Of a stretch of DNA of 15,851 nt, positions 1 to 14,594 are shown piece after piece. Location: positions 1 through 15,851 of the forward strand of contig JAGSPR010000113.1 of assembly GCA_018262455.1 (NCBI GenBank), read 5' to 3'. Position numbers and translations under genes: made by a program. The DNA comes from Deltaproteobacteria bacterium (lineage in GTDB: Bacteria > Myxococcota > Polyangia > Haliangiales > Haliangiaceae). A model generated the notes under the pieces. The model had not been told where the DNA came from, did no database searches, and saw only the letters and a list, made by a program, of their open reading frames with translations. The stretch's first letter is position 1. Each line of letters begins with the position of its first letter.

Positions 1-522
1 GGGCTCGTCCCGATCTCGGCGATGCTGACCACCGACGAGCTGTTCGATCGGGCCTACGGCCAGCACTACGCGTCGGCCGAGGCGCACAACACGACGTTCG
101 GTGGTAGCGCGATCGTGTGCGTCGCGGCGCTCGCGGCGCTCGACCTGCTCACCGACGAGCTGATCGCGCGGGTCGGCGAAGTCGGCGCGCGGTTTCGCGG
201 CAAGCTCGCGGCGACGCTCGCGCGCCACGAGCTGTTCGAGGAGGTGAGGGGCGCCGGACTGCTCGTCGGGATCGCGCTCAAGCCGTCGGATCATCCGTGG
301 CTGTCGTTCGAGCACTTCGGTGTCGAGGCGCTCGCGGACCAGCCGACGACCGGCGTGCTGCTCTGCCACCGGCTCTACAAGCGCGGCTTCTACTGCTTCG
401 CGTGCGGCCACGACTGGCGGATCCTGCGCGTGCTGCCGCGGTTCAATATTCCCGAGCCGGTGCTCGACACGTTCGTCTCCGCGATCGACGAGGAGCTGGA
501 GTATCTATGCAGCCTGACCTGA
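1..522 (+). CDS. PLP-dependent class III aminotransferase, C-terminal part (5' end outside window)
   Basis: The reading frame is open from base 1, so only the last 173 residues are seen. The segment with N-T-T-F-G-G-S followed by an Ala-rich helix matches the class III (ornithine/acetylornithine/GABA-type) aminotransferase fold, where this Thr contacts the PLP phosphate of the partner subunit. The later V-R-G-A-G-L-L-V-G-I block is the usual start of the small C-terminal domain. The PLP-binding lysine would lie upstream of the window. Such enzymes transfer an amino group from an amino donor to an aldehyde or keto acid; the substrate cannot be read here. The 3' end overlaps the SDR gene by 16 bases and carries that gene's ribosome binding site, so the two are translationally linked. 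The operon context (SDR, acyltransferase, lipid hydroxylase) suggests biosynthesis of a modified small molecule or lipid head group rather than arginine metabolism, but that is inference. Confidence 0.88.
   Translation, partial: GLVPISAMLTTDELFDRAYGQHYASAEAHNTTFGGSAIVCVAALAALDLLTDELIARVGEVGARFRGKLAATLARHELFEEVRGAGLLVGIALKPSDHPWLSFEHFGVEALADQPTTGVLLCHRLYKRGFYCFACGHDWRILRVLPRFNIPEPVLDTFVSAIDEELEYLCSLT
498..501 (+). promoter_or_regulatory. Shine-Dalgarno site for the SDR gene, inside the aminotransferase gene
   Basis: GGAG lies five bases before the ATG at 507, with an additional AGGAG at 491-495. It decides the SDR start, since the frame stays open much further upstream without a sensible N-terminus. 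Confidence 0.6.
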
Positions 523-1232
523 GCTCGCCCGCGGGCGCAGGGGACCCCCGCCGCGCCCTCGTGCTCGGAGGAACCGGCGCGGTGGGCAGCGCGGTGTTGC
601 GCGAGCTCGCGCGCCGCAGCGTTCCCGCGGCGTTCGGCTATCACCGATCCGCCGACAAGGCGCAGATGCTCGCGCTCGAGTACGGCCACACGGCATTTCA
701 GATCGACCTTGCCGATGCCGACGCGACTCGCGCCGCGCTCGATGCGCAGGACACCCCGGACGTGCTGATCCACTGCGCCGGGGTCAGCGCTCCGCGCACG
801 CTCGACGAGCTCGACGTCGCGGCCTGGCAGCATGCCATGGCCGTGAATACCCAGTCGGCGTTCCTGGCGTGCCAGTGGATCGCGGCGTGCGGCCGGCCGT
901 GCGATGTCGTGCTCGTCGGCGCGCTCGATCGTGCGCAGTCGCTGCCGTTGCCCGTGCACTTCGCCGCCACCCAGGGCGCGCTGTCGGCGCTGGTCATGGC
1001 GCTCGGGCACGAGCTCGGGCCGCGAGGGATCCGCATCAACCTCGTGGCGCTGGGCGTGCTCGATAGCGGGCTCTCGGACAGCCTCGTCGCCCGGCGGCGC
1101 AAGGACTACGAGACCTTCAGCGCGCTGCGCCGGATCGGCACGCCCGACGAGGCAGCGAAGACGATCGCGTGGCTCGCTCTCGAGAACACGTTCATCCAGG
1201 GCAAGGTCATTTCCGTGAATGGAGGCATCTGA
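507..1232 (+). CDS. Short-chain dehydrogenase/reductase (FabG-like) lacking the catalytic Ser-Tyr-Lys
   Basis: The 241-residue product has the length and layout of a classical SDR related to 3-oxoacyl-ACP reductase. It has a Rossmann Gly motif G-G-T-G-A-V-G at 21-27, an H-C-A-G-V block at 89-93 in place of N-N-A-G, the conserved structural Asn at 114, an E-L-G-P-R-G-I-R-I-N block at 169-178, and a typical C-terminus ending V-N-G-G. Aligned with FabG, however, the catalytic Ser position is Ala139, the Tyr is Phe152 and the Lys is Gln156 (F-A-A-T-Q instead of Y-x-x-x-K). NAD(P) binding may survive, but ordinary keto-reduction is unlikely. It may be a structural or regulatory partner, or use different chemistry. 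The start at 507 is fixed by a GGAG site. The gene overlaps the aminotransferase by 16 bases, and its stop overlaps the next start by one base, so it sits mid-operon. Confidence 0.9.
   Translation: MQPDLSSPAGAGDPRRALVLGGTGAVGSAVLRELARRSVPAAFGYHRSADKAQMLALEYGHTAFQIDLADADATRAALDAQDTPDVLIHCAGVSAPRTLDELDVAAWQHAMAVNTQSAFLACQWIAACGRPCDVVLVGALDRAQSLPLPVHFAATQGALSALVMALGHELGPRGIRINLVALGVLDSGLSDSLVARRRKDYETFSALRRIGTPDEAAKTIAWLALENTFIQGKVISVNGGI
1221..1225 (+). promoter_or_regulatory. Strong Shine-Dalgarno site for the 329-residue unknown protein
   Basis: GGAGG lies six bases before the ATG at 1232, inside the last codons of the SDR gene. It supports a start at 1232 rather than an upstream in-frame codon. 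Confidence 0.65.
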
Positions 1233-2221
1233 TGGCCGAGCACACCGATCGTATCCAACCATCGCGGTTCAATTCGCGCGGGATCTTCTTCTTCTCCGGG
1301 CGGATCCAGTGCCCGCTCGCCGGGATCGGCAGCCGCCCTGCCGATGCGAGTAACCGGCTCGTGCTCGACGACGCGATGAGCGAGGTGACGATCGATCGCG
1401 AGGCGCGCCGGATCACCGTCCGCAACGACCACGGCTACGCCAAGAAGACCAACGTCGCCGATCTCATGTTTCTCGCCGAGGGGGTCACGGGGTCCGGGGA
1501 GCGCTCGCCGTTCAGCATCCACCTCAAGGTCCAGAAGACCGGGCACAAGTACGGCGTCGATCTGCATCGCCACCTGCGCAACGGCAACCCGATGGTCCGC
1601 GCCGAGTACGAGCCGTACGAGGTCGTCGCGATCGACGGTGGCAAGTCCCTGGTGCTGCTCGATCAGCAGCGCACGGATCAACTGATCAGCAAGCCGTCGA
1701 TCGCGCTGAGGATCGTCAAGGCGTTCATGGCGATGAAGGACAACCTCGAGGGCCAGCAGCAGGATCCGGGTGCGCCTGGTTACCGCGTCGCCGATCTGTC
1801 GGTCGGGTTCGGTGCGCTCGGCCTCGACTACATGATGGCTCGCGCCCAGCTCGTGTCGCTCGACGGCGGCAACGCCGCGCTGATCGAGCGCGGCTCGGTC
1901 CCCGACATGCTGCGCGAAGGCGCGTGGGAGATGAAGTTGACCGCGCTGTCGGAGAAGTGGCTCCCGGAGGTCGTGCAGCGCGATCTGTTCCTCTACGGCA
2001 TCGACGAGCTGCCCCTGCTCGCCGAGGTCCGCCAGCGTGGCCTGCTCAAGGGCCAGACCCTCGCGTTTCGGTTCGACCGCACCGGTGGCACGGTTGCGCT
2101 CGATGACAAGTCGACGCCGTTGCCGGGCGCCCTCGACGTCGCGCGTGCGTACATCGAGTTTCACATGCTCGGCGGCCTGCTCGCCGAGCACGCCGAGTCG
2201 CGCGCGCGTCCGCCGGTGTAG
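1232..2221 (+). CDS. Conserved-looking protein of unknown function, 329 residues
   Basis: I do not recognise this family. The product looks soluble: there is no signal peptide and no convincing membrane segment. It mixes beta-rich stretches (residues about 17-150, including a G-H-K-Y-G-V-D-L-H-R-H segment) with more helical ones (about 150-260, including D-Y-M-M-A-R-A-Q-L and an acidic/aromatic W-L-P-E-V-V-Q-R-D block). Codon use resembles the neighbours, and the frame carries a strong Shine-Dalgarno, so it is a real gene. Its start overlaps the SDR stop by one base (TGATG), and its stop abuts the acyltransferase ATG with no gap, so it must be co-translated with both. Placed between a degenerate SDR and a membrane acyltransferase, it may be a subunit or enzyme of the same pathway. 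No function is assigned. Confidence 0.85.
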   Translation: MAEHTDRIQPSRFNSRGIFFFSGRIQCPLAGIGSRPADASNRLVLDDAMSEVTIDREARRITVRNDHGYAKKTNVADLMFLAEGVTGSGERSPFSIHLKVQKTGHKYGVDLHRHLRNGNPMVRAEYEPYEVVAIDGGKSLVLLDQQRTDQLISKPSIALRIVKAFMAMKDNLEGQQQDPGAPGYRVADLSVGFGALGLDYMMARAQLVSLDGGNAALIERGSVPDMLREGAWEMKLTALSEKWLPEVVQRDLFLYGIDELPLLAEVRQRGLLKGQTLAFRFDRTGGTVALDDKSTPLPGALDVARAYIEFHMLGGLLAEHAESRARPPV

Positions 2222-3307
2222 ATGCCCTCCGCGCGTCACCACGGCCTCGATACCGCGCGCGCGCTCGCGATGGTGGTGCTCCTCGCCACGCACGGCGCGC
2301 TCTCGTTCATGGTCACCCCGGTCGGCTGGGCGATCCAGGATCGCAGCCAGCACCTCGGGGTCGATCTGGCTGTCTGGATCGTCCGGGCGTTCGCGTTGCC
2401 CATGTTCTTCTGGCTGTCCGGGTTCTGCTCGCGGGCGGTGCTCGAAGGGCAGGGGGTTCGCGGGTTCGTGCGCCACCGCGTGACCCGCATCCTGCTGCCG
2501 CTCGTCATCGCGATCGTGCCGTGCTCGCTCGCGCTCGACGCGCTGTGGGACTGGGGCCGCGAGCTCGCGGGTCGGCCCGAGGTCGCGGCGAACGTGCCCA
2601 AGCTGCAGGGCTCGGGGCTGCCGATCACGCTCGGCCACCTCTGGTACCTGTACTACCTGCTCGCGCTCTCGGGGATCGCGCTGGCGGTGGTCGCCGTCAC
2701 GCGCCGCGGAAGGCTCGTGCTGCCCGGCGCCGCGATCCTCGCCTCCGTCGCGATCCTCGCGTGCGGCTCGCTCGCCGTGACCGGGATGCTGCAGCCCGAT
2801 ACCCCGCTCGGGTTCGCGCTCGACCCTGGCGCGTTCGCGTTCGAGGGTGCGTTGTTCGCCTGGGGCTGGCTGGTCCACGCCCGGCCCGGCGAGCTCGAGC
2901 GCTATGGAGCGCGCGCCTGGTGGTTCGTCGGCATCGCGGTCGCCAGCCTCGGAGCCGTCCTGCCGGCGCTGTACGACAGTGCGGATCCGGCGAGCCAGGC
3001 GCGCCCGCCGCTTTATGCGATCGCGGCCAGCGGCGTGTTCGCGCTCGCGGCGACCGGCGCGTTCATCGCCCTGTGCGTCCGCTACGCGAGGCGGCGCCAC
3101 CGCTCGCTGCAGCTCGCCTCCGAGGCGTCGTACTGGTGCTACATCGTCCACCTGCCGCTGCTCGTCCTGCTGCAGATCTCGCTGGCCGAGGTTCGGCTGC
3201 CCGGCGTGCTCAAGTTCCTCGCGATCGTCGCGGTGACCATGGTCGCGAGCGTGCTGTCCTACGCGCTCGTGATCCGTCGAGCTCCGCTGCGCCGGTTGCT
3301 GGGCTAG
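2222..3307 (+). CDS. Acyltransferase-3 family integral membrane protein (OafA/MdoC-like)
   Basis: The 361-residue multi-spanning protein starts with the family signature G-L-D-T-A-R-A, followed by hydrophobic residues and a His, with Arg13 and His24 as the expected acyl-transfer residues. The F-F-W-L-S-G-F segment near residue 62-68, the basic R-H-R-V-T-R loop after it, the H-L-W-Y-L-Y-Y-L motif near residue 140 and the late S-Y-W-C-Y-I-V-H-L-P-L helix are typical of Acyl_transf_3 proteins, especially the MdoC/OpgC-type branch. These proteins transfer acetyl, succinyl or other acyl groups from the cytoplasm to sugars, lipids or polymers at the membrane. The ATG follows the upstream TAG directly, with no Shine-Dalgarno of its own, so translation probably depends on coupling. 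The acceptor is not deducible. Neighbouring lipid-type enzymes make a lipid or glycolipid acceptor plausible. Confidence 0.9.
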   Translation: MPSARHHGLDTARALAMVVLLATHGALSFMVTPVGWAIQDRSQHLGVDLAVWIVRAFALPMFFWLSGFCSRAVLEGQGVRGFVRHRVTRILLPLVIAIVPCSLALDALWDWGRELAGRPEVAANVPKLQGSGLPITLGHLWYLYYLLALSGIALAVVAVTRRGRLVLPGAAILASVAILACGSLAVTGMLQPDTPLGFALDPGAFAFEGALFAWGWLVHARPGELERYGARAWWFVGIAVASLGAVLPALYDSADPASQARPPLYAIAASGVFALAATGAFIALCVRYARRRHRSLQLASEASYWCYIVHLPLLVLLQISLAEVRLPGVLKFLAIVAVTMVASVLSYALVIRRAPLRRLLG

Positions 3308-3312
3308 TCGTC

Positions 3313-4518
3313 GTGGGCGAGATCTCGATCCCGTACCTGTTCGCGGCGCTGATGGCGCTGGAGTTTGGCTACAACGCGATCCACCGCAAGCCCTATCAGA
3401 CGCCGCGCGACTCCGCGGTCAGCTTGATGGTCGCGATCCCGCACTTCGCGCTGCTGTCGATCGTGCCGGTGGTGTGGGTCGTGGTCTATCGCCACGTCCA
3501 GGCCGCGATGCCGGGCCAGCTCGCGATGGGCTGGTGGATCTGGCCGATGGGCATCGTCGTCATGGACTTCGCCGCATACTGGATGCACCGCTACCACCAC
3601 GCGATCAACCTCACCTGGGGTGTCCACTCGGTGCATCACTCGAGTGACGAGTTCACGATGACCACCGGCGGCCGCAGCTCGGTCGCCGAGCCGTTCGTCA
3701 ACGTGATCTCCGGCGCGTACCTGATCCTGGTGTTGCCGGCGGTCCTGGGCCTGCCGATCGTGGCCGCGGGGCTGGGCTGGCTCGTCAAGGACGCCTGGGG
3801 CTTTGCCGTCCACACCCGCAACATCGCCAGGCTCGGCCCGCTCGAGTACGTGATGGCCACGCCTTCGCACCACCGGGTCCATCACGCGATGAACCCGATC
3901 TACGCCGGCAAGAACTTCGGGTTCGTGTTCATCGTCTGGGACAAGCTGTTCGGCACGTTCCAGCCCGAGCTCGCGGCGATCGCGCCGATCTACGGGACCA
4001 CGCGCCCGCCGCGGAGCTTTCACCCGCTGAAGGTCGCGTTCCACGAGCTGGCCGCGATCTGGCGCGATGCGGTCGCGACGCGGCGGTGGCGCGACAAGCT
4101 GCGGATCTGGTTCATGCCCGCGGGCTGGCGCCCCGACGACGCGATCGCCGAGCCGGCGCAGCCTCGTACGCGCTACGCCCCACCGGCGCCGCGCGCGCTG
4201 TACGTTGTGGGGGGGCTCCAGCTCGGCTACCTGCTGGTCGCGGTGGTCCACCTCGCGGCCACGCTCGGCGATCACGGGATCGCGCCGGACCTCGGGTACC
4301 TCGGCTTCTTGATCCTCGGCGCCGCGATCCTCGGCGAGTTCTTCGAGTGCTCGCCGCGCTTCCCGGTGGTGGAGACAGCGCGCACGGTGAGCGTGCTCGT
4401 CCTGATCCTCTCGACCGGGACCTGGTTCGGCCGCCCGCTCGACGGCTTGCCGTGGCTGCTAGTCGTCGGATCGGGGGTGAACCTGGTCGTGGCGTGGATC
4501 GCGGCCCGGCTGCGCTGA
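3313..4518 (+). CDS. Sterol desaturase/fatty acid hydroxylase superfamily, AGMO-like di-iron membrane oxygenase
   Basis: The 401-residue product carries the eight-His-type di-iron pattern of the family: H-R-Y-H-H at 92-96, H-S-V-H-H at 105-109 and H-H-R-V-H-H at 186-191, set among membrane helices. The block H-T-R-N-I-A-R-L-G-P-L-E-Y followed by T-P-S-H-H-R-V-H-H and W-D-K-L-F-G-T-F closely resembles animal alkylglycerol monooxygenase (AGMO/TMEM195) and its bacterial homologues. After about residue 290 there is an extra hydrophobic C-terminal domain of about four helices, as in AGMO-length proteins. The expected chemistry is O2-dependent hydroxylation of a lipid chain or ether lipid; which one is unknown. 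I chose GTG at 3313 because it gives a family-like N-terminal helix; ATG at 3352 would cut into it. The gene follows the acyltransferase by five bases, and its 3' end overlaps the convergent flippase-like gene by 60 bases. Confidence 0.9.
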   Translation: MGEISIPYLFAALMALEFGYNAIHRKPYQTPRDSAVSLMVAIPHFALLSIVPVVWVVVYRHVQAAMPGQLAMGWWIWPMGIVVMDFAAYWMHRYHHAINLTWGVHSVHHSSDEFTMTTGGRSSVAEPFVNVISGAYLILVLPAVLGLPIVAAGLGWLVKDAWGFAVHTRNIARLGPLEYVMATPSHHRVHHAMNPIYAGKNFGFVFIVWDKLFGTFQPELAAIAPIYGTTRPPRSFHPLKVAFHELAAIWRDAVATRRWRDKLRIWFMPAGWRPDDAIAEPAQPRTRYAPPAPRALYVVGGLQLGYLLVAVVHLAATLGDHGIAPDLGYLGFLILGAAILGEFFECSPRFPVVETARTVSVLVLILSTGTWFGRPLDGLPWLLVVGSGVNLVVAWIAARLR

Positions 4519-5529
4519 CTCGAGGATGCTCCGCAACGCGCCGATCAGCGGCAGGTACGTCAGCGCCAGCCCGATCTGGAGGTACGCGGTGAGCGCGCGG
4601 TAGAGCAGCACCACCGCGAACGCTCCGCCGTCGGGCAGCAGGTGACCGAAGAACACGCCGGCGCCCGCCTCGGCGATTCCGGGTGCCGGCGCGATGTTGG
4701 TGAACGCCAGGTAGATGATCGCGAGCGGCACGATGGGCCCGATCGCGCGCGCGCCGAACATGTGCGCGAGCACGACGACGAGGCCCACGTAGGCCCCGTA
4801 GTACAGCACGTGGCTCGCGCACATCGCCAGCCAGCCACGCACGCCGGCGGCGCGAAACTTCGCCATCCGCTCGACCGATCGCCGCGCGATGCCGGCCCCG
4901 GCGGTGATGGCACGACGCGCCCGCGGACCGTGGAGCAAGGGCCGCCGCTCGAGCCACTGCTCGCCGTGCCCGATCCAGCGCAGCGAGGTCTCCGGCCACG
5001 CGGCACCGACGACGAACGAGCCGACAAGCACCACGCCGAACCCGATCGTGACCACGATCGACACGATCGCCCAGGCCGCGATCGGCGGCCCGTAGCCGAG
5101 CCCGAGCAGCACCCCGGCCAGGCCCATGATGAACGCGAAGCTCGTGGCGAACTTGCCGAACGAGATCACGAGCGAGGCATCGACCGGGACGCCTCGGCGC
5201 GCCATCACGTAGACCGAGACCGGCTCGCCGAGCATGCCGCCAGGGCTGATCCAGGTGAACAGATCGTTGGCGATCGACGCATCGAACGAGGCGCGGACGC
5301 CGACGTGGACCCCGAGCGCGCGCCCGAACACCCACAGCCGGATCATCTCGGCCACGAGCACCACCACGGCGATCCCGAGGAGGATCAGCGCGTTGCCCCA
5401 GCCGAGCCCCACGAGCTCGTGCCACGTTCGCGCGAGCGTCTCGCGCCCGGGGGCGGCCCACCACACGCCGAGCGAGGTGCAGCCGACGAAGCCGACCAGC
5501 ATCGCGGTCAGGCGTGGCCCCGGCTTCAT
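4459..5529 (-). CDS. Flippase-like domain membrane protein (UPF0104/TIGR00374, LPG-synthase TM-like)
   Basis: The 356-residue, strongly hydrophobic protein has about eight membrane segments. It shows features typical of the lysylphosphatidylglycerol-synthase transmembrane superfamily: an early helix pair, a W-I-S-P-G-G-M-L-G-E-P block near residue 93-103, and a late N-I-A-P-A-P-G-I-A-E-A-G block just before the final helices. The soluble aminoacyl-transfer domain of MprF is absent, so it is not an MprF-type lipid aminoacylase. Stand-alone members are generally thought to translocate lipids or lipid-linked intermediates across the membrane. It starts three bases after the radical SAM gene stops, making it the last gene of a four-gene minus-strand operon. 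Its final 60 bases overlap the 3' end of the AGMO-like gene on the other strand. It may flip the lipid made or modified by its neighbours; that is inference. Confidence 0.85.
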   Translation of the reverse strand: MKPGPRLTAMLVGFVGCTSLGVWWAAPGRETLARTWHELVGLGWGNALILLGIAVVVLVAEMIRLWVFGRALGVHVGVRASFDASIANDLFTWISPGGMLGEPVSVYVMARRGVPVDASLVISFGKFATSFAFIMGLAGVLLGLGYGPPIAAWAIVSIVVTIGFGVVLVGSFVVGAAWPETSLRWIGHGEQWLERRPLLHGPRARRAITAGAGIARRSVERMAKFRAAGVRGWLAMCASHVLYYGAYVGLVVVLAHMFGARAIGPIVPLAIIYLAFTNIAPAPGIAEAGAGVFFGHLLPDGGAFAVVLLYRALTAYLQIGLALTYLPLIGALRSILESAQPGRDPRHDQVHPRSDD

Positions 5530-5532
5530 GCG

Positions 5533-6978
5533 TCAGGGCCGACCACGTCCGAGCGTCACGAGGGGCGCCGCCGGCTGGGCGGCGAATCGCGCGTCGCGAT
5601 CGCGGTACAGCGTGTTGTAGGCGCACGACGGGATGTTCGTGCCATCGGGCTCGCGGATGCCGACACAGCACTGGCGGATCCGGTCGGTATCGAACGTGTC
5701 CTCGTCCATGTGCGAATGGATGTAGATCGCCTTCGAGCTGAGCTCGGCGCGGCGCAGCCGTTCGAGCGGCTCGAGCCCGGGCGCGAACACCGCGGTCGTC
5801 AGCTGCTTGAGCTTGCCGAGCACCGCTTCGGAGTCGGCGCACTCGAGCTCGCCGGCCCACAGGCGTGCGATGACATCCTGCATCCGGTGCTCCATCGGCG
5901 CGGTCGGCTCGAGGTAGAGCATGCCGGCGAGCATCTCGCGCAGATCGCCGGGAGTCATGAAGCGCGGGAACGGCAGCCAGCGACCATCGTCGAGCCGCAG
6001 CACGTAGGTCACCGAGTAGCAGAGCGGGTGGGCAGCGGGCGAGGGCACGAAGTCGGTGATCCGCAGCGTGCCGGCGGTCTGGGCCTCGATGTCGGCGAGC
6101 ACGTCGTAGGTCGAGTAGCGGCCGCGGCGGTCGAACGAGGTCCCGTTGTGGCCGGTGAAGGTCATCGTGTGGAGCTCGATGCTGCGGATGAAGTCCTTGC
6201 GCAAGGCGAGCTCGATGAACGCGCCGACCTCGTCGTCGTTGATGCCGCGCGCGAGCACCGGAAGGAGCGTGGTGTGGACGTTGTACTGCTCGAGCAGCTC
6301 GAGCACCCGCAGCTTGCCGTCGAGGAACTGGCCGCCGAGCATCTGCTGGTTGCGCTCGGGCTTGAACGAGTCGAACGACAGCACGATCCGGGCGTCGAGC
6401 TCGGCGAGCCGAGCGAGCAGCCGCTCGTCCTTGAGAAACCGCAGCCCGTGCGTCGACACGGTGATCCGATGGATGCCCTCCTCGACGCACAGCTCGACGA
6501 GTCGCTCGAACGAGGGGTGCTGGGTTGGCTCGCCGCCGGTGAGGTTGATGATGCGCTTCTCGGGATCGGTCTGCCGCAGGTGGTGCAGGATCGCGCGCAG
6601 CTCGGGCTCCGACATGTGATATGCGCCGGCGCCGTTCTTGTTGTGCGTGTAGCAGATCGGGCAGTCGAGGTTGCACGCGCTCGTGATCGGCACGATCGGC
6701 AGCTGCACCTGCTGCTCGTGGCTCGTGCACGGGCCGCAGTCGAACGGGCAGCCCTGGCTGACCTGCTTGCGCGCGGTCGGGCGGGCCAGCGCCGGGGCCT
6801 GGGCGATGATCCGCTCGTACCAGTCGGCGTTCGTGGCGATCGTGACCTCGGCGGCGCCGTGGAGGTCGCAGACCTTGCGCATCACGATCTCGCCGTGACT
6901 GCGCCAGACCTCGGCGGGCACGCCACGCTTGCACTGCGTGCACAGCGACGTCGTGGTGCGGAGGAGCCGATCGGTCAC
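5533..6978 (-). CDS. Radical SAM enzyme, COG1964 family (tetraether lipid synthase Tes-like)
   Basis: The 481-residue product has three Cys-rich elements. C-T-Q-C at 13-16 with C37 and H40 looks like a rubredoxin-like or zinc-type site. C-P-F-D-C-G-P-C at 77-84 is a second cluster motif. The radical SAM motif C-N-L-D-C-P-I-C is at 102-109, with G-G-E-P at 148-151. The C-terminal block F-D-T-D-R-I-R-Q-C-C, then P-D-G-T-N-I-P-S-C-A-Y-N (about 428-455), is characteristic of COG1964, the family containing Methanocaldococcus MJ0619 (Tes), which joins lipid tails by C-C bonds and holds several Fe-S clusters. Bacterial members are largely uncharacterised, so the exact reaction is unknown. GTG at 6978 overlaps the ABC ATPase stop by four bases (GTGA), fixing the start and showing coupling. 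Context with a FtsX/LolC-type transporter and a flippase-like protein supports a lipid substrate. Confidence 0.9.
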   Translation of the reverse strand: MTDRLLRTTTSLCTQCKRGVPAEVWRSHGEIVMRKVCDLHGAAEVTIATNADWYERIIAQAPALARPTARKQVSQGCPFDCGPCTSHEQQVQLPIVPITSACNLDCPICYTHNKNGAGAYHMSEPELRAILHHLRQTDPEKRIINLTGGEPTQHPSFERLVELCVEEGIHRITVSTHGLRFLKDERLLARLAELDARIVLSFDSFKPERNQQMLGGQFLDGKLRVLELLEQYNVHTTLLPVLARGINDDEVGAFIELALRKDFIRSIELHTMTFTGHNGTSFDRRGRYSTYDVLADIEAQTAGTLRITDFVPSPAAHPLCYSVTYVLRLDDGRWLPFPRFMTPGDLREMLAGMLYLEPTAPMEHRMQDVIARLWAGELECADSEAVLGKLKQLTTAVFAPGLEPLERLRRAELSSKAIYIHSHMDEDTFDTDRIRQCCVGIREPDGTNIPSCAYNTLYRDRDARFAAQPAAPLVTLGRGRP

Positions 6979-7625
6979 GACGACAGCTTGCCATCTCGCA
7001 TGCGCAGGATCCGACCCGCGCGTGCGGCAACTTCTGGATCGTGGGTGACGACGAGCACCGCCACGCCGTCGGCCTCGAGCAGGGCGTCCATCACCGCCGC
7101 CGCCGAGGCGGTATCGAGGCTGCCGGTCGGCTCGTCGGCGAGCACGAGGCAGGGCCGGTTGACGAGCGCGCGCGCCACCGCCACCCGCTGCGCCTCCCCG
7201 ATCGACAGCTCCGCGGCACGCGCCCTGGCCCGGGTCGCGAGCCCCAGCCGGTCGAGCAGGCGATCCGCTTCGCGCAGCGAATCGCGCCGCGATCCGGTCG
7301 CGCGCCACCGCGCGATCGCCACGTTGTCGCGCGCGCTCAGGTGCTCGAACAGGTTGTTCTGCTGGAACACGAAGCCGAGCCACGACAGCCGCATCTCGGC
7401 CCGCGTGATCTCGGTACAGCTCCAGGCGTCGCGCCCTCGCAGCGCGAGCGTGCCCTCGGTCGGGTGATCGAGTAACCCGAGCATCTGGAGCAGCGAGGTC
7501 TTGCCGCACCCGCTCGGGCCCATCAAGGCCACCGACTCGCCGTCTGCGATCACGAGCGAGGCGTCGTGCACGACCTCGCGAGTGCCGTGTCGTCGGGTCA
7601 GCCCGTGCGCCTCCAGCACGTTCAT
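6975..7625 (-). CDS. ABC transporter ATP-binding protein (LolD/MacB-type)
   Basis: This 216-residue stand-alone nucleotide-binding domain has all expected motifs: Walker A G-P-S-G-C-G-K-T at 36-43, Q-loop Gln88, signature L-S-I-G-E-A-Q-R at 140-147 (Ile for the usual Gly), Walker B ending L-A-D-E-P-T at 162-167, and switch His195. The T-G-S-L-D after Walker B is typical of the LolD/FtsE/MacB group that partners with FtsX-fold permeases, which is exactly what is encoded 20 bases upstream. Ala-rich stretches shorten the C-terminal part, but nothing appears missing. I chose ATG at 7625 because a GGAG lies six bases before it; a GTG at 7637 is the alternative. The gene's stop overlaps the start of the radical SAM gene by four bases. 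The pair likely drives mechanotransmission-type export or extraction of a membrane-embedded substrate. Confidence 0.93.
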   Translation of the reverse strand: MNVLEAHGLTRRHGTREVVHDASLVIADGESVALMGPSGCGKTSLLQMLGLLDHPTEGTLALRGRDAWSCTEITRAEMRLSWLGFVFQQNNLFEHLSARDNVAIARWRATGSRRDSLREADRLLDRLGLATRARARAAELSIGEAQRVAVARALVNRPCLVLADEPTGSLDTASAAAVMDALLEADGVAVLVVTHDPEVAARAGRILRMRDGKLSS

Positions 7626-7645
7626 GGAGCGCTCCACGTGCGCGG

Positions 7646-8908
7646 TCAATCGATCCTCCGCAGCACGATCGCGGGATCGGTGCGAGCCGCCCGCCACGCG
7701 GGGTAGCTGCCCGCCGCGATCGCCGTCACGACGATCACGATCGCGGGCACGAGGAACGTCGCGGTCGAGATCACCGGGCGCACGACCAGGCTCTCCCACG
7801 CGAAGATCGGGTGACCAGCGAAGTACTGGATCAAGCCGTAGCCGAGCAGCGAGCCGATCGCGCAGCCGATGCACGCCACCGCGAGTGCCTGCAGCACGTG
7901 GATCACGAAGACCTCACCACGGCCGAACCCGAGTGCCGAGAGGATCCCGATCTCTCGCCGGCGCTTGAGCACGTGGATGTAGAGCAGCGCCCACATCGGG
8001 ATCGAGATCGCCGCGATCACCATCGCGTAGGACACCGTGTGGATCGCGTGGTTCGCGCTCAGGTAGCTCGCCAGATACGGATCGTCCTCGCGCCACCCGA
8101 TCGCCTGGACCTCGGGCAAGCTCGCGTTGATCCGCTCCGCGAGCAGCGAGGCCGCTTCGTGATCGCGCAGGTGCACGACGATCGCCGAGGCGCTCGCCGG
8201 CGCGCCCGCCAGGTTGCCGAGGAAGCTGCGCTCGACGAACGCGAACCGGTAGCCACCGCCGCTGCCCACCACGATCCCGCGCACGATCATCGTGAACCGG
8301 CCGACGTTGTCCTCGCCGATCGCCGCGTCAGCCGGGCCGAAGATCACGCGGAGCTCCAGCGGATCGCCGACCGCGAGCCCGAGCCGGGTCGCCAGCGCCG
8401 ATCCGAGCAGCACGCCGCGATCATCGCCCTTGCCGAGCAGCGCCCCGCTCGAGAGGTGAAACGGCAGCAGCTCGCTGTCGACCTCGATCCCGTAGATTGG
8501 CGCTCCGAGGAAGCGCCCCGCCTTGCCGACCGCGCCGGGATAGACCAGGACCGGCGTCGCGGCCCGCGCACTGACAAGCGCGCCGATCCGCTTCGCCTCC
8601 GCCGTGCCGTCGTCGAATCGCGGCTGGTTGCGGGGCTCGACCCGGATGTCACCCGCGCCGCGGGTCAGCCCGTCCTCGAGCAGCGCGTCCGCGAACCCCG
8701 AGAGGTTCGCGGTGTTCGCGACCTGAAAGCCTCCGCCCGCGGCGATCGCGATCACGAGCAAGCCGAACGTCAGCTTGCCGCCGAGCAGGCTCTTGCGGGC
8801 GAGGAACACCAGCAGCCGGACATGCGAGCGTGACCGCCGGAGCGCGATCTCGTCGTGTCGAGTCACCGACGGGTTGTACCGCAGCCTGATGCCGGCGAGG
8901 CGCGTCAC
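7646..8908 (-). CDS. FtsX/LolC-like ABC transporter permease (MacB_PCD-type)
   Basis: The product, up to 420 residues, has the FtsX-fold layout: a short cytoplasmic N-terminus, one membrane helix near residue 46-62, a long extracytoplasmic domain (about 65-290), then three membrane helices. A typical cytoplasmic K-R-R-R-E-I-G-I-L-S-A-L-G-F-G loop follows the second helix, and a C-terminal Y-P-A-W-R-A-A-R-T-D-P motif closes it. These marks are shared by LolC/E and MacB permeases. Only one permease gene is present, so a homodimer with the adjacent ATPase is expected, unlike LolCDE. No adaptor or outer-membrane channel gene lies nearby. The start is uncertain: GTG at 8908 gives the longest form and GTG at 8866 is a good alternative (both lack a strong Shine-Dalgarno). 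It is the first gene of the minus-strand operon. Confidence 0.9.
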   Translation of the reverse strand: MTRLAGIRLRYNPSVTRHDEIALRRSRSHVRLLVFLARKSLLGGKLTFGLLVIAIAAGGGFQVANTANLSGFADALLEDGLTRGAGDIRVEPRNQPRFDDGTAEAKRIGALVSARAATPVLVYPGAVGKAGRFLGAPIYGIEVDSELLPFHLSSGALLGKGDDRGVLLGSALATRLGLAVGDPLELRVIFGPADAAIGEDNVGRFTMIVRGIVVGSGGGYRFAFVERSFLGNLAGAPASASAIVVHLRDHEAASLLAERINASLPEVQAIGWREDDPYLASYLSANHAIHTVSYAMVIAAISIPMWALLYIHVLKRRREIGILSALGFGRGEVFVIHVLQALAVACIGCAIGSLLGYGLIQYFAGHPIFAWESLVVRPVISTATFLVPAIVIVVTAIAAGSYPAWRAARTDPAIVLRRID

Positions 8909-8917
8909 CTTGCGGCA

Positions 8918-8945
8918 TTGTCGAGCCCCAAACTCTGGGTATGCT
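8918..8945 (+). promoter_or_regulatory. Possible sigma70-like promoter for the DUF4184 gene
   Basis: TTGTCG (8918-8923) and TATGCT (8940-8945) are separated by 16 bases, each matching four of six consensus positions. Transcription would begin only a few bases before the ATG at 8956. The site lies in the short divergent gap between the permease and DUF4184 genes. Support is weak in such GC-rich DNA. Confidence 0.3.
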
Positions 8946-8955
8946 GTGTGGCGAG

Positions 8956-9756
8956 ATGCCCTTCACGGCCGCGCACGTCCTGGCCGTCCTGCCCGGCCTG
9001 CGGTGGCACTCACGGCTCCGGCTCGATCCGACCTGCCTCGTCATCGGGAGCATGGCGCCCGACTTCGAGTACTTCGTGCGCGGCGAGCTCGTGGGCCGGT
9101 ACAGCCACACGTTCGTCGGCATCGCGGGGTGGGGCGTGCCGGTGACCCTCGTGGTCGCGGCGCTGTACCACCACGTCGTGAAGTGGCCCGTGCTGCTCGC
9201 TGCGCCGGCCGCGATCACGCCGCTCTTGGCCCGCCCGTGGCAGGCGCGCTGGACCGTCGGAGCGGTCATCAGCGTGGTGGTGTCTGCGGCGCTCGGCGAT
9301 CTCACGCACCTGCTGTGGGACGGCCTGACGCACGCGAACGGGGTGTTCGTCCGCCGGATCCCGGAGCTGCATGCTCCCTACGACTTGCCGGTCGTGGGAG
9401 GCATGGTCACGCATCGGATCCTGCAGCACACCAGCACGATCCTCGGGTTACTCGGGGTCGGCTGGTTCACGCTGCGGCGGATCCGTCACGCGGCCGGGCC
9501 TCCGCGGCAAGCCCGGCGCGCCCGCGCGCGCTGGATCATGGTCGGCTGCCTCGCCGTCGGCATCGCGCTGCTCGAGATCCGGCTGGTCTCCATGCACGTC
9601 CGCGACCCAGGCAGCGTGATCACGGCGGCGATCTCGGGAAGCCTCGCCGGCGCGATCGTCGCGGGGCTCTTCCTGCGCGGTGCCGGTCAGGCGTACGCGA
9701 GGCAAGTTGGCATGGCGACCGCCTCGCCGAAGCGCGTCGGTCAAGCGAGCAGCTAG
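8956..9756 (+). CDS. DUF4184 family membrane protein
   Basis: The 266-residue integral membrane protein begins M-P-F-T-A-A-H and continues with G-S-M-A-P-D-F-E-Y-F, the hallmark N-terminus of DUF4184 proteins, whose biochemical role is not known. Conserved His and Asp residues occur in and near the N-terminal half (H7, D40, and later H and D residues in D-L-T-H-L-L-W-D), which in related membrane hydrolase-like families could bind metal; that is only an analogy. About six hydrophobic segments follow, with a basic loop near residue 180-195. An in-frame ATG at 8941 exists, but 8956 gives the standard family start. It is a single-gene unit: divergent from the transporter operon and convergent with the aminotransferase gene, 14 bases away, with no visible hairpin terminator between them. 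Confidence 0.87.
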   Translation: MPFTAAHVLAVLPGLRWHSRLRLDPTCLVIGSMAPDFEYFVRGELVGRYSHTFVGIAGWGVPVTLVVAALYHHVVKWPVLLAAPAAITPLLARPWQARWTVGAVISVVVSAALGDLTHLLWDGLTHANGVFVRRIPELHAPYDLPVVGGMVTHRILQHTSTILGLLGVGWFTLRRIRHAAGPPRQARRARARWIMVGCLAVGIALLEIRLVSMHVRDPGSVITAAISGSLAGAIVAGLFLRGAGQAYARQVGMATASPKRVGQASS

Positions 9757-12096: not shown

Positions 12097-13716
12097 ATGT
12101 CCGAGGTCGGGAACCTGGCAGCGTGGTTACTGGACCGCTCCCTCGCGAGCGGCGCCGGTCCCCGAACGGCCTTGCGCGAAGGCGATCGCGCCTGGACCTT
12201 CGACGAGCTCGCGAGCCAGGTCACGGGGCTGTCCTCCGCGCTCCGCGCCCTGCGGCTGCAGCGTGGCGAGCGGGTGCTGATCCTGATGCGCGACACGATG
12301 GAGGCCGCGGCGGCGATCCTCGCGGTGATCCACGCCGGGGCAGTCGCGGTCCCGGTCTCCGAGCTGTCGACGCCCGATGACGTCCAGGAGTACGTGCTGC
12401 ACGCCGGCGCGGTGATGGCGATCGTCGACGACTCGCACATGCAGGTGGTCGATGCCGTGCGCACCGTGACCCCGGATCTGCGCGAGGTGATCGGTGTCGG
12501 CGCCAAGCTACCCGGGACCCACGACTATCACGCGCTCGTCGTCTCGGCATCGCCGCAGCCGCCCGTGCCGATGGGCGAGTCCGACATCTCGGTCCTGCTC
12601 TACTCGGCGGGGTCGGGACCGGGTGAGCTGCGCGCCGTGCCGCACTCCAAGCGCACGATCATGGCGGCGCAGGCGTCGTTCGCGATCGACTTGCTGCAGC
12701 TGACGTCGGCGGACCGGATGCTCTCGGTGGCCCGGCTGTCGACGGCCTACGGGCTCGGCGCTGGGCTCCTGCTCCCGCTCGCGGTCCAGGCCGAGTCGCT
12801 GCTGTTTCCCGCACAGCCGCACTCGGACCTGCTGTTTGCGGCCCTGCAGAGCTACAGGCCCACGGTGCTGTTCGCGACTCCGTCGGTGTACGCGCAGCTG
12901 TCCCACGATGCCGAGGAGCGTGGGATCGCGCGCCCGCTTGCCCAGCTGCGCCACGCGGTCGCGGGGGCCGAGGGCATGCCCGAGCGGCTGATCCCGCGGA
13001 TTCGCTCGGTGCTCGGCACCGAGGTCATCGTCGGCTACGGGCTCACCGAGATCTTCCAGTTCGCGCTCGCGGGCCGCAGCAACGATCCCGGCGCTCGCCC
13101 CGGCGTGTGCGGCAAGCCGCTGGCGGGCGTCCAGGTCCGGCTGGTCGACGAGGACGGCGATCCCGTCGGCGTGGACGAGATCGGCACCCTCGAGCTGGCC
13201 TGCGGCTCGCTGTTCACCGGCTACTGGGGCGGCGGCGCGAGCCCCGGCGAGCATGACCTGCGGGCCGATGGCTGGTTCACGACGCGCGATCGCTTCATGA
13301 TCGATCGCGAGGGCTTCTATCACCACTGCGGGCGCGTCGACGATCTGTTCAAGGTCGGCGGCAAGTGGGTGTCCCCGTCGGAGGTCGAGCACGCGCTCGT
13401 CGCCCACGAGGCGGTGTGGGAGGCGGCGGTGATCGGCGCGGAGGATGACGAGGGGCTGATCAAGCCGCTCGCGTTCGTCGTCACCAACGTCGGTCAGGAC
13501 AGTGGCCCCAAGCTCGAGAGCGAGCTCAAGGAGTACGTCAAGGCCCACCTCGCCCCGTACAAGTACCCGCGGTGGATCGAGTTCGTCGACGCGTTGCCGC
13601 GCGGTCCAGGCGGCAAGCTGCTGCGCTACAAGCTGCGCCCGGCACGCCGGCGGCGACGGGCCGAGACCGGGCACAACGAGCCCTCGATCGATTCCGACAA
13701 GCCCAAGAAGGAATGA
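12097..13716 (+). CDS. ANL-superfamily acyl-CoA ligase, benzoate-CoA-ligase-like
   Basis: The 539-residue enzyme would adenylate a carboxylic acid and pass it to CoA. Motifs in order are an altered A3 P-loop at 169-183 (Y-S-A-G-S-G-P-G-E-L-R-A-V-P-H), A5 Y-G-L-T-E at 314-318, A7 T-R-D at 396-398 (usually T-G-D), hinge G-R-V-D-D-L-F-K-V-G-G-K at 412-423 and the A10 lysine Lys507 in P-G-G-K-L-L-R. The segment 217-268 (A-Y-G-L-G through T-P-S-V-Y-A) resembles benzoate and other aromatic acid-CoA ligases. The P-loop is one residue longer than usual and carries Arg where Lys is common, so activity or acid specificity may differ. A basic tail (514-539) is extra. The stop overlaps the next gene's ATG (ATGA). 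It is transcribed from the promoter just upstream. The acid substrate is unknown. Confidence 0.9.
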   Translation: MSEVGNLAAWLLDRSLASGAGPRTALREGDRAWTFDELASQVTGLSSALRALRLQRGERVLILMRDTMEAAAAILAVIHAGAVAVPVSELSTPDDVQEYVLHAGAVMAIVDDSHMQVVDAVRTVTPDLREVIGVGAKLPGTHDYHALVVSASPQPPVPMGESDISVLLYSAGSGPGELRAVPHSKRTIMAAQASFAIDLLQLTSADRMLSVARLSTAYGLGAGLLLPLAVQAESLLFPAQPHSDLLFAALQSYRPTVLFATPSVYAQLSHDAEERGIARPLAQLRHAVAGAEGMPERLIPRIRSVLGTEVIVGYGLTEIFQFALAGRSNDPGARPGVCGKPLAGVQVRLVDEDGDPVGVDEIGTLELACGSLFTGYWGGGASPGEHDLRADGWFTTRDRFMIDREGFYHHCGRVDDLFKVGGKWVSPSEVEHALVAHEAVWEAAVIGAEDDEGLIKPLAFVVTNVGQDSGPKLESELKEYVKAHLAPYKYPRWIEFVDALPRGPGGKLLRYKLRPARRRRRAETGHNEPSIDSDKPKKE

Positions 13717-14594
13717 TCGGCGCGCTGCTCGCTGTCGCCTGTGTCGATCGCGCGGTGCTGGCGCGGATCGCGGGCCCGATCGGCGAATCGGCACGCCGCG
13801 CCGCCACCGACCTGGCGACCGCATCGCCCGACGAGCGGCGCAGGTTGCGAGCGCGCATGCTCGCCGGCGCGACGGCACCGCTGCCCACCGGGATCCGCGG
13901 CGCGCACCCGAGCTGGATCGAGGCGGGGCTCGTCGGCCTGCCGGAGCGGGCGCGCCACGCGATCGCGAGCGGCACGCTCACCGCGGTCGATGTCTGGCTC
14001 GCGCGCTGGGCGTGCGCCGAGATCCCGCCGCTACCGGCGACCTCGGACCGCCCGGTCGGCTCGGTGTACGACGCGATCCGGCTCCCTGGCGACAAGCTGG
14101 TCGCGTGGTTATCGGAGATCGGCGCCGATCAGCTGGCCTTCGCGCTGCGCGCCGCCGGCCCCGACGCGCTCGCCCGCGTCGCCGCCAGTGCGCCGGACCG
14201 CGCGCTCGGCGCTCGGCTCGCGGTGGCCGCGGCGCGGCTCGACCGCCCGCCGCGGCTCGATGCCCTGGGACCGGTGCGCGCCGCGATCGCCCGCTGCCGG
14301 CTCGAGCGGCAAAGCCGCGAGGACCGGGATGGAATAGCGAGAGCGCAGCTCGAGCGGCAAAGCCGCGAGGACCGGGATGGAATAGCGAGAGCGCAGCTCG
14401 AGCTCGACGTCACCGCGCTGGTCCGGATCGGCGCTCGCGCGATCGCGCCGTATGTCGATGCGCTCGCGGCGCGCCAGCTCACGGTCCGGATGCCGCACTC
14501 GCTCGGGCTCGCGGTCCGTCGAGAGCTGGTCACGCACGCGAGCACCCCGGTCGACCGCTGTCCGACCTGGCGTGCGCTCGCCGCCGTGGACTGA
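13713..14594 (+). CDS. Unknown Ala/Arg-rich helical protein with an inserted 16-residue tandem repeat
   Basis: I do not recognise this 293-residue protein. It is very rich in Ala, Arg and Leu and predicted mostly helical, with no signal peptide or clear membrane span; residues about 120-180 vaguely recall the repeated helical blocks of FliG-like proteins, too weakly to assign. ATG at 13713 overlaps the CoA ligase stop (ATGA), so the two are co-translated and may cooperate. Residues 197-228 are two identical 16-residue units rich in Gln, Arg, Glu and Asp, unlike the flanking composition. Removing both leaves a continuous sequence (R-L-E-L-D-V), which suggests later insertion. Codon use outside the repeat fits a genuine gene. 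The coding status rests on the frame, the coupling and third-position GC. Confidence 0.75.
   Translation: MIGALLAVACVDRAVLARIAGPIGESARRAATDLATASPDERRRLRARMLAGATAPLPTGIRGAHPSWIEAGLVGLPERARHAIASGTLTAVDVWLARWACAEIPPLPATSDRPVGSVYDAIRLPGDKLVAWLSEIGADQLAFALRAAGPDALARVAASAPDRALGARLAVAAARLDRPPRLDALGPVRAAIARCRLERQSREDRDGIARAQLERQSREDRDGIARAQLELDVTALVRIGARAIAPYVDALAARQLTVRMPHSLGLAVRRELVTHASTPVDRCPTWRALAAVD
14301..14402 (+). repeat. Two perfect 48-bp tandem repeats plus a 6-bp partial third copy
   Basis: Units at 14301-14348 and 14349-14396 are identical, followed by CTCGAG of a third (14397-14402). Each starts with CTCGAG and contains a 13-base hairpin, GCGGC-AAA-GCCGC. The unit is 16 codons, so the frame of the host gene is kept. 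Its composition (AAAG, GGAATAG) differs from the surroundings. It may be a dispersed mobile repeat that landed in the gene and duplicated. Confidence 0.95.

Follow-up and report, generated by a model that had tools for sequence, protein, structure and literature searches.

What does a radical S-adenosylmethionine (SAM) enzyme related to the archaeal tetraether synthase Tes, which joins lipid tails, do in a bacterial operon with an ATP-binding cassette (ABC) exporter and a flippase-like protein? The question is raised by a contig of 15,851 nucleotides (JAGSPR010000113.1, assembly GCA_018262455.1; as a whole, the window) from a member of the Haliangiaceae (Myxococcota) recorded as Deltaproteobacteria bacterium. 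Our analysis suggests that the operon probably forms one end, serving export and late modification, of a type II fatty acid synthase/polyketide synthase (FAS/PKS)-like lipid gene cluster with radical modification. Its four genes are as follows.

7646..8908, minus strand: FtsX/LolC-type ABC permease (PF02687 3e-17, MacB_PCD 4e-7; lolCE model 69 bits, below its cut-off of 362)
6975..7625, minus strand: LolD/MacB-type ABC ATPase (ABC_tran PF00005 1.6e-29; top model LolD 178 bits, below its cut-off of 308)
5533..6978, minus strand: clade A3 Tes-superfamily radical SAM (rSAM) enzyme, 481 amino acids, GTG start (Radical_SAM PF04055 1e-24, Zn_ribbon_HMPTM PF23545 1e-12)
4459..5529, minus strand: UPF0104/LPG_synthase_TM flippase-like membrane protein (PF03706 3e-16, 60 bits, cut-off 33.4)

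The genes form one operon with the spacing given in the initial annotation: 20 bases separate the permease stop (7648-7646) from the ATPase ATG (7625), the rSAM GTG (6978-6976) overlaps the ATPase TGA (6977-6975) as GTGA, and three bases lie between the end of the rSAM frame (5533) and the ATG of the PF03706 gene (5529). Genes were called as stop-to-stop frames, and the start codon of the permease is uncertain (GTG at 8908 or a later codon). The rSAM gene is real and no chance frame, as 1,240 homologues were found at E ≤ 1e-3 among 7,998 candidates scored.

The rSAM protein belongs to the family that contains archaeal Tes (GDGT-MAS; MJ0619; structures 7tol and 7tom), as had been proposed from its motifs. 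Tes structure 7tol is matched in two stretches covering nearly the full length of the protein (E 3e-56; 28% identity, 126 of 450 aligned columns) and is the first Foldseek match of its predicted model (1e-27). The domain order is that of Tes, and a ligand map places all four Tes metal sites in the window protein: the rubredoxin-type CX2C-X20-CX2H site (C12, C15, C36, and H39 in P0002 numbering), the N-terminal [4Fe-4S] cluster with CX3CX2C and a histidine (C76, C80, C83, and H86), the CX3CX2C radical SAM cluster (C101, C105, and C108), and the C-terminal [4Fe-4S] cluster. The residues of the last site (C319, C436, and C451) are taken as ligands by their alignment with Tes C338, C455, and C470, themselves assumed ligands. 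Across 11 aligned sequences including that of the window, the cluster cysteines are invariant with the exception of C437 (C or P), and the C-terminal PDG...CAYN block, which had been singled out together with three cysteine clusters, is nearly invariant. In the window protein, the stretch ahead of the first C-terminal cysteine is shorter than in Tes by about 20 residues, and Met439 is the one Tes metal ligand that it does not conserve.

The initial annotation went further and proposed that the operon makes a radical-modified, perhaps cross-linked or membrane-spanning lipid, which it flips and exports. On this view the enzyme would be a bacterial Tes that couples phospholipid tails into membrane-spanning lipids resembling glycerol dialkyl glycerol tetraethers (GDGTs). 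Tes is indeed the best solved relative by sequence and fold, the metal sites are conserved, and a role in producing branched GDGTs (brGDGTs) has been proposed for bacterial Tes homologues (PMC8941075, PMC10087280; these and the papers cited below were available as partial texts, to which our statements about them refer). Even so, we regard tail coupling by a bacterial Tes as quite improbable. Against the Tes model NF045702, the window protein reaches 228.3 bits, about half of the cut-off of 450, and the genomes of five relatives contain no match above that cut-off. Tes Met439 is replaced by His420 and Tyr459 by Ile440, and two adenosine-contact residues are altered (Arg210 to Leu and Gln268 to His). 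Membership in Tes proper was therefore rejected. Both Met439 and Tyr459 are reported to be completely conserved among 1,000 archaeal homologues, though the Tes variant M439A is robustly active and Y459 is not essential (PMC9433317), so their loss counts against membership and not against similar chemistry. Acyl carrier protein (ACP) and ketosynthase (KS) genes, moreover, accompany many of the relatives; ether-lipid genes were not searched for. Membership in the second-best family, TrsS (NF045646), was rejected as well (225.0 bits, cut-off 490).

To place the protein, a tree was built. The best 80 of 283 confirmed relatives (74 loci) were kept, so that distant members are undersampled. From 159 selected rows plus the window protein and Tes, 137 rows remained after removal of identical or contained ones; rows with fewer than about 330 aligned residues, such as a fragment at locus L059, were left out. 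The tree was computed by a quick method (LG+G4) with SH-aLRT support only and gave long-branch warnings. It contains a clade A of 85 rows (A0, 12; A1, 22; A2, 24; A3, 27 including the window) and a clade B of 42 rows, and four odd rows meet A and B at an unresolved fork. Clade A is duplicated into A2 and A3 in the lineage of the window, whose protein is an A3. Tes falls outside A and B, as do the two myxobacterial proteins grouped with it and three further rows close to TrsS. The protein was not seen to group with enzymes whose known role is unrelated to lipids, as no known function was found for the clade of the window.

Histidine stands at the Met439 position in 85/85 A rows and 41/42 B rows (the remaining one has a gap). 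Tyr459 is found in 41/42 B rows and 0/85 A rows, Arg210 is kept in 42/42 B rows and lost in 85/85 A rows, and Gln268 is kept in 41/42 B rows and is His in A1 to A3. By this pattern at positions 210, 268, and 459, A and B have diverged in specialisation, and B looks more Tes-like than the window protein. It also speaks for the view that A3 is a radical methylase (class D) or another C-H modifier that does not join chain carbons, since A, lacking Tes active-site residues still present in B, may do other chemistry. The InterPro family was once named Methyltransferase_Class_D, which was also the first annotation of MJ0619, but the methylase role has not been borne out for the type enzyme (PMC9433317). 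We consider a methylase rather unlikely.

The A and B rows carry labels from Myxococcota, Pseudomonadota, Verrucomicrobiota, Planctomycetota, Acidobacteriota, Bacillota, Spirochaetota, Campylobacterota, and Elusimicrobiota and from the candidate phyla Rokuibacteriota, Walliibacteriota, Muiribacteriota, and Riflebacteria. Most A2 and A3 rows are labelled Myxococcota or Pseudomonadota; A2 also includes two rows from Planctomycetota and one from Walliibacteriota. Labels are given as written in the records, most of which are metagenome-assembled genomes; one of these (L021), labelled Bordetella parapertussis, may be mislabelled. Of the rows outside A and B, the two myxobacterial proteins grouping with Tes (L075 and L076) keep Met439 and Tyr459 and lack two rubredoxin-site cysteines and all three cysteines of the N-terminal cluster. 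L118, L119, and the row grouped with L119, L082, likewise fall outside A/B and have no FAS neighbours; the TrsS model gives L118 351 and L119 317 bits, also below its cut-off.

A pathway of the lipid type, as had been proposed, is supported. Many of the relatives lie in FAS-like clusters. An A or B row is present in 72 of the 74 loci, 65 of which are at least 10 kb long. These 65 loci hold genes for short-chain dehydrogenases/reductases (SDR; 59 loci), ACP (39), class III aminotransferase (AT3; 33), KS (32), nitroreductase (NTR; 31), FabZ (28), a chain-length-factor-like protein (CLF; 28), PF03706 protein (13), the ATPase (9), fatty acid hydroxylase (FAH; 9), acyltransferase 3 (AcylT3; 5), the family-less protein HYP329 (5), and the permease (3). 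At least two of KS, ACP, FabZ, and NTR occur in 37/65. None of the 13 roles was found at five control loci of other family members (0/5; 16-20 kb with unequal flanks, from five of the same genomes). KS with the catalytic triad, its CLF partner, ACP, ketoreductase (KR), and dehydratase (DH) genes stand together in L172, G001, L177, and others; several relatives have a second set of KS and partner, and the simplest sets (L063 and L070) comprise FabZ, CLF, KS, FabG, NTR, ACP, FabG, FabZ, A, and B. The catalytic C-H-K-H residues are present in 39/49 rows that best match KS profiles and in 0/9 CLF rows; the remaining 10 KS-profile rows look like further partner subunits.

The two enzyme types also travel together. 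Since the SPASM layout label also covers COG1964 genes without a clade label, A/B pairs were counted from tree rows: A1 and B share one fetched locus in 21/22 A1 loci, and A0 and B do so in 10/12 A0 loci. Records from Massilia, Sorangium, and Polyangium carry the pair. Among 35 genomes from the order of G001 (the genome of L012, the nearest tree row to the window), eight hold A3, and seven of these eight also hold A2 and B (clades assigned by identity bands). The aminotransferase gene is present at 1/12 A0, 10/21 A1, 15/17 A2, and 17/25 A3 loci. An extra rSAM gene from a separate COG1964 line lies within some A/B loci (L054:7776-9938, L063:14314-15801, and L070:11363-12787).

Of such a cluster, the window shows just the aminotransferase-SDR-HYP329-acyltransferase end, which is convergent to the operon.

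1..522, plus strand: class III aminotransferase, C-terminal 173 amino acids (PF00202 9e-15; relatives full length in L012 and L172)
525..1232, plus strand: SDR, FabG-like reductase (PF13561 6e-27)
1232..2221, plus strand: HYP329, without family, chalcone-isomerase-like fold in C-terminal half
2222..3307, plus strand: acyltransferase 3 family membrane protein (PF01757 1e-29)
3307..4518, plus strand: fatty acid hydroxylase/sterol desaturase family, OlsE-like (PF04116 2.5e-27; OlsE model 60.7 bits, cut-off 475)

The hydroxylase and PF03706 genes, the last of the two convergent operons, share 60 bases (4459-4518). The window edge truncates the aminotransferase just past the KHLGG stretch of its relatives, which we take to hold the pyridoxal phosphate lysine.

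These opposite-strand genes (1-4518) belong to the same cluster as the rSAM operon. The best complete relative is G409, the genome of L001, with a 20.6-kb contig (L172 and L173). There, SDR and B on one strand are followed by FabZ, KS, CLF, KSb, a KS-like gene, SDR, NTR, ACP, A2, SDR, AT3, SDR, HYP329, and acyltransferase, and the convergent side holds a hydroxylase-type gene (37% identical to that of the window over a part), the PF03706 gene, A3, and, where the contig stops, the C-terminal half of the ATPase. The contig breaks within the ATPase: this one ends with its residues 112-216, and a second G409 contig ends with a PIG-L-type gene, a permease 62% identical to that of the window, and ATPase residues 3-113. 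Going by this arrangement, the A2, B, and ketosynthase genes are to be expected past the left window edge. The view of the four genes as a stand-alone operon missed a larger FASII-like cluster with two or three rSAM enzymes. At L059, one strand carries the permease, the ATPase, a hydroxylase (57% identical), and A3; as the hydroxylase stands between the ATPase and rSAM genes there, the plus-strand hydroxylase of the window is tied to the minus-strand operon.

Two details of G409 may be added. The KS-like protein after KSb (L172:7882-9024) has a degenerate C-terminal domain; with it, the cluster has two KS-plus-partner sets. The PIG-L-type gene, a deacetylase gene by type, lies directly before the permease (L170:4502-5350).

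The exporter is the least certain part of this picture, because 22 of the 25 A3 loci of at least 10 kb show no permease. It could be of the LolCDE/MacB type, serve a lipoprotein or drug, and lie beside the rSAM gene by chance; the top ATPase models, LolD and MacB, would fit this. The pair turns up again, however, in the company of more than one gene of the cluster. In G409 and L059 it adjoins A3, and in Polyangium G005 a 57%-identical permease and ATPase are convergent to acyltransferase-HYP329 and lie away from A3 (the G005 permease near A3 is only 40% identical). We therefore consider a chance neighbour unlikely. On whether the four genes are neighbours in related genomes, the evidence is mixed: G409 and L059 speak for it, and the scarcity of the permease at A3 loci and its absence from G001 speak against it. 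The PF03706 gene is present at 12/25 A3 loci of at least 10 kb, and 7/11 genomes searched have a homologue at 1e-15.

Neither the rSAM family nor the type II FAS/PKS cluster is new in itself, and the combination resembles several described systems. As in highly reducing type II PKS/aryl polyene clusters, there are KS-CLF, KR, DH, ACP, and an extra KS (PMC8358021); unlike those, the A/B clusters include a nitroreductase and two or three enzymes of the Tes type, and the term "radical SAM" occurs 0 times in the PMC8358021 text. Unlike Tes, the relatives of the window rSAM stand in FAS-like clusters with a second paralogue. A comparable gene content is known from the ladderane candidates of the anammox bacterium Kuenenia: ACP, FabF, non-canonical FabF, FabZ, FabG, and paired radical SAM enzymes (PMC2649909, PMC4790861). 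These genes gave no new product in E. coli (PMC4790861), and their set also includes phytoene desaturase, which was not searched for in A/B clusters.

A true ladderane pathway, homologous to the anammox clusters, is nevertheless extremely improbable. The TrsS model scores A and B proteins at 225-272 bits, and none of eight hydrazine-synthase-positive genomes matches it at 1e-25. The absence of this rSAM family from all eight anammox-type genomes led us to reject ladderane homology: the cluster of the window is not the ladderane set. HZS_alpha matched 76 of 392 Planctomycetota genomes, in some cases in far longer frames that are probably not hydrazine synthase; the eight test genomes are those with a match in frames of about 800 residues.

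We infer a pathway in which the KS/CLF set, working with a dedicated ACP, would assemble a chain of defined length. B and A2/A3 would then abstract hydrogen atoms from the chain and form new bonds in it, most likely between carbons. The aminotransferase and SDRs could give the chain an amino or hydroxy end; decoration could come from the acyltransferase and hydroxylase, and HYP329, with its chalcone-isomerase fold, may hold the acyl chain. The PF03706 protein would flip the lipid, and the LolC/LolD-type pair, where present, would remove it from the inner membrane.

A bolder version is possible, and we offer it tentatively: in a pathway that, going by record labels, reaches more than ten phyla, a KS/CLF line may pass an ACP-bound chain to an A+B pair that makes sp3-sp3 carbon-carbon bonds in or between chains. 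The products would be aminolipids of a new class, either cyclised or two-headed, and in Myxococcota and Massilia-type bacteria the duplicated A would carry out a third radical step ahead of export. In our literature search, which reached papers in part and had most subscription journals and preprints outside its scope, we found no report of a Tes-family pair clustered with KS/CLF-ACP genes.

Several observations weigh against reading the operon as the part of an FAS/PKS-like cluster that serves export and late modification. The permease is found at 3/25 A3 loci, all from Polyangium and only about 38-40% identical; at 1e-15, 3/11 genomes searched have a homologue, and G001 has none. As the ABC pair is rare around A3, export by this pair is not general. 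Fewer than two of KS, ACP, FabZ, and NTR are seen at 28/65 A/B loci, many of them cut by contig ends, though L003 and L033, among others, have few neighbours from the cluster set. For the ketosynthase part, which the window does not include, the evidence comes from relatives. The predicted rSAM model has a pLDDT of 68 and an rmsd to 7tol of 18.9, with pLDDT below 50 at residues 60-120 and 423-480, the expected metal-binding parts. The idea of carbon-carbon bond formation is carried over from Tes, with which the window protein shares 28% identity, and A lacks active-site residues that B keeps. We know of no product and no reaction for any A or B member.

These clades also matter for lipid biomarkers. 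Bacterial Tes hits have been tied to brGDGT production by hypothesis (PMC8941075, PMC10087280, PMC11868695); if many of them are A/B enzymes of FAS-like clusters, such inferences need a clade check. Histidine at the Met439 position would be a simple marker of A/B, and loss of Tyr459 separates A from B. Through the A+B pair, radical C-H chemistry that may act on ACP-bound chains also becomes accessible in cultivable bacteria.

The neighbour genes c8, c10, c11, c12, and c13 match no family above its cut-off. A DUF4184/Zn-dependent phospholipase C-like gene (8941-9756) is divergent from the permease; kinship with the PF00882 gene after A3 in Massilia was considered and rejected, as blastp gave no similarity. 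Farther along, a perfect tandem repeat (14300-14403; 48-base unit, 2.2 copies, 100% match) sits within an unassigned frame (13572-14594) and encodes a repeated peptide.

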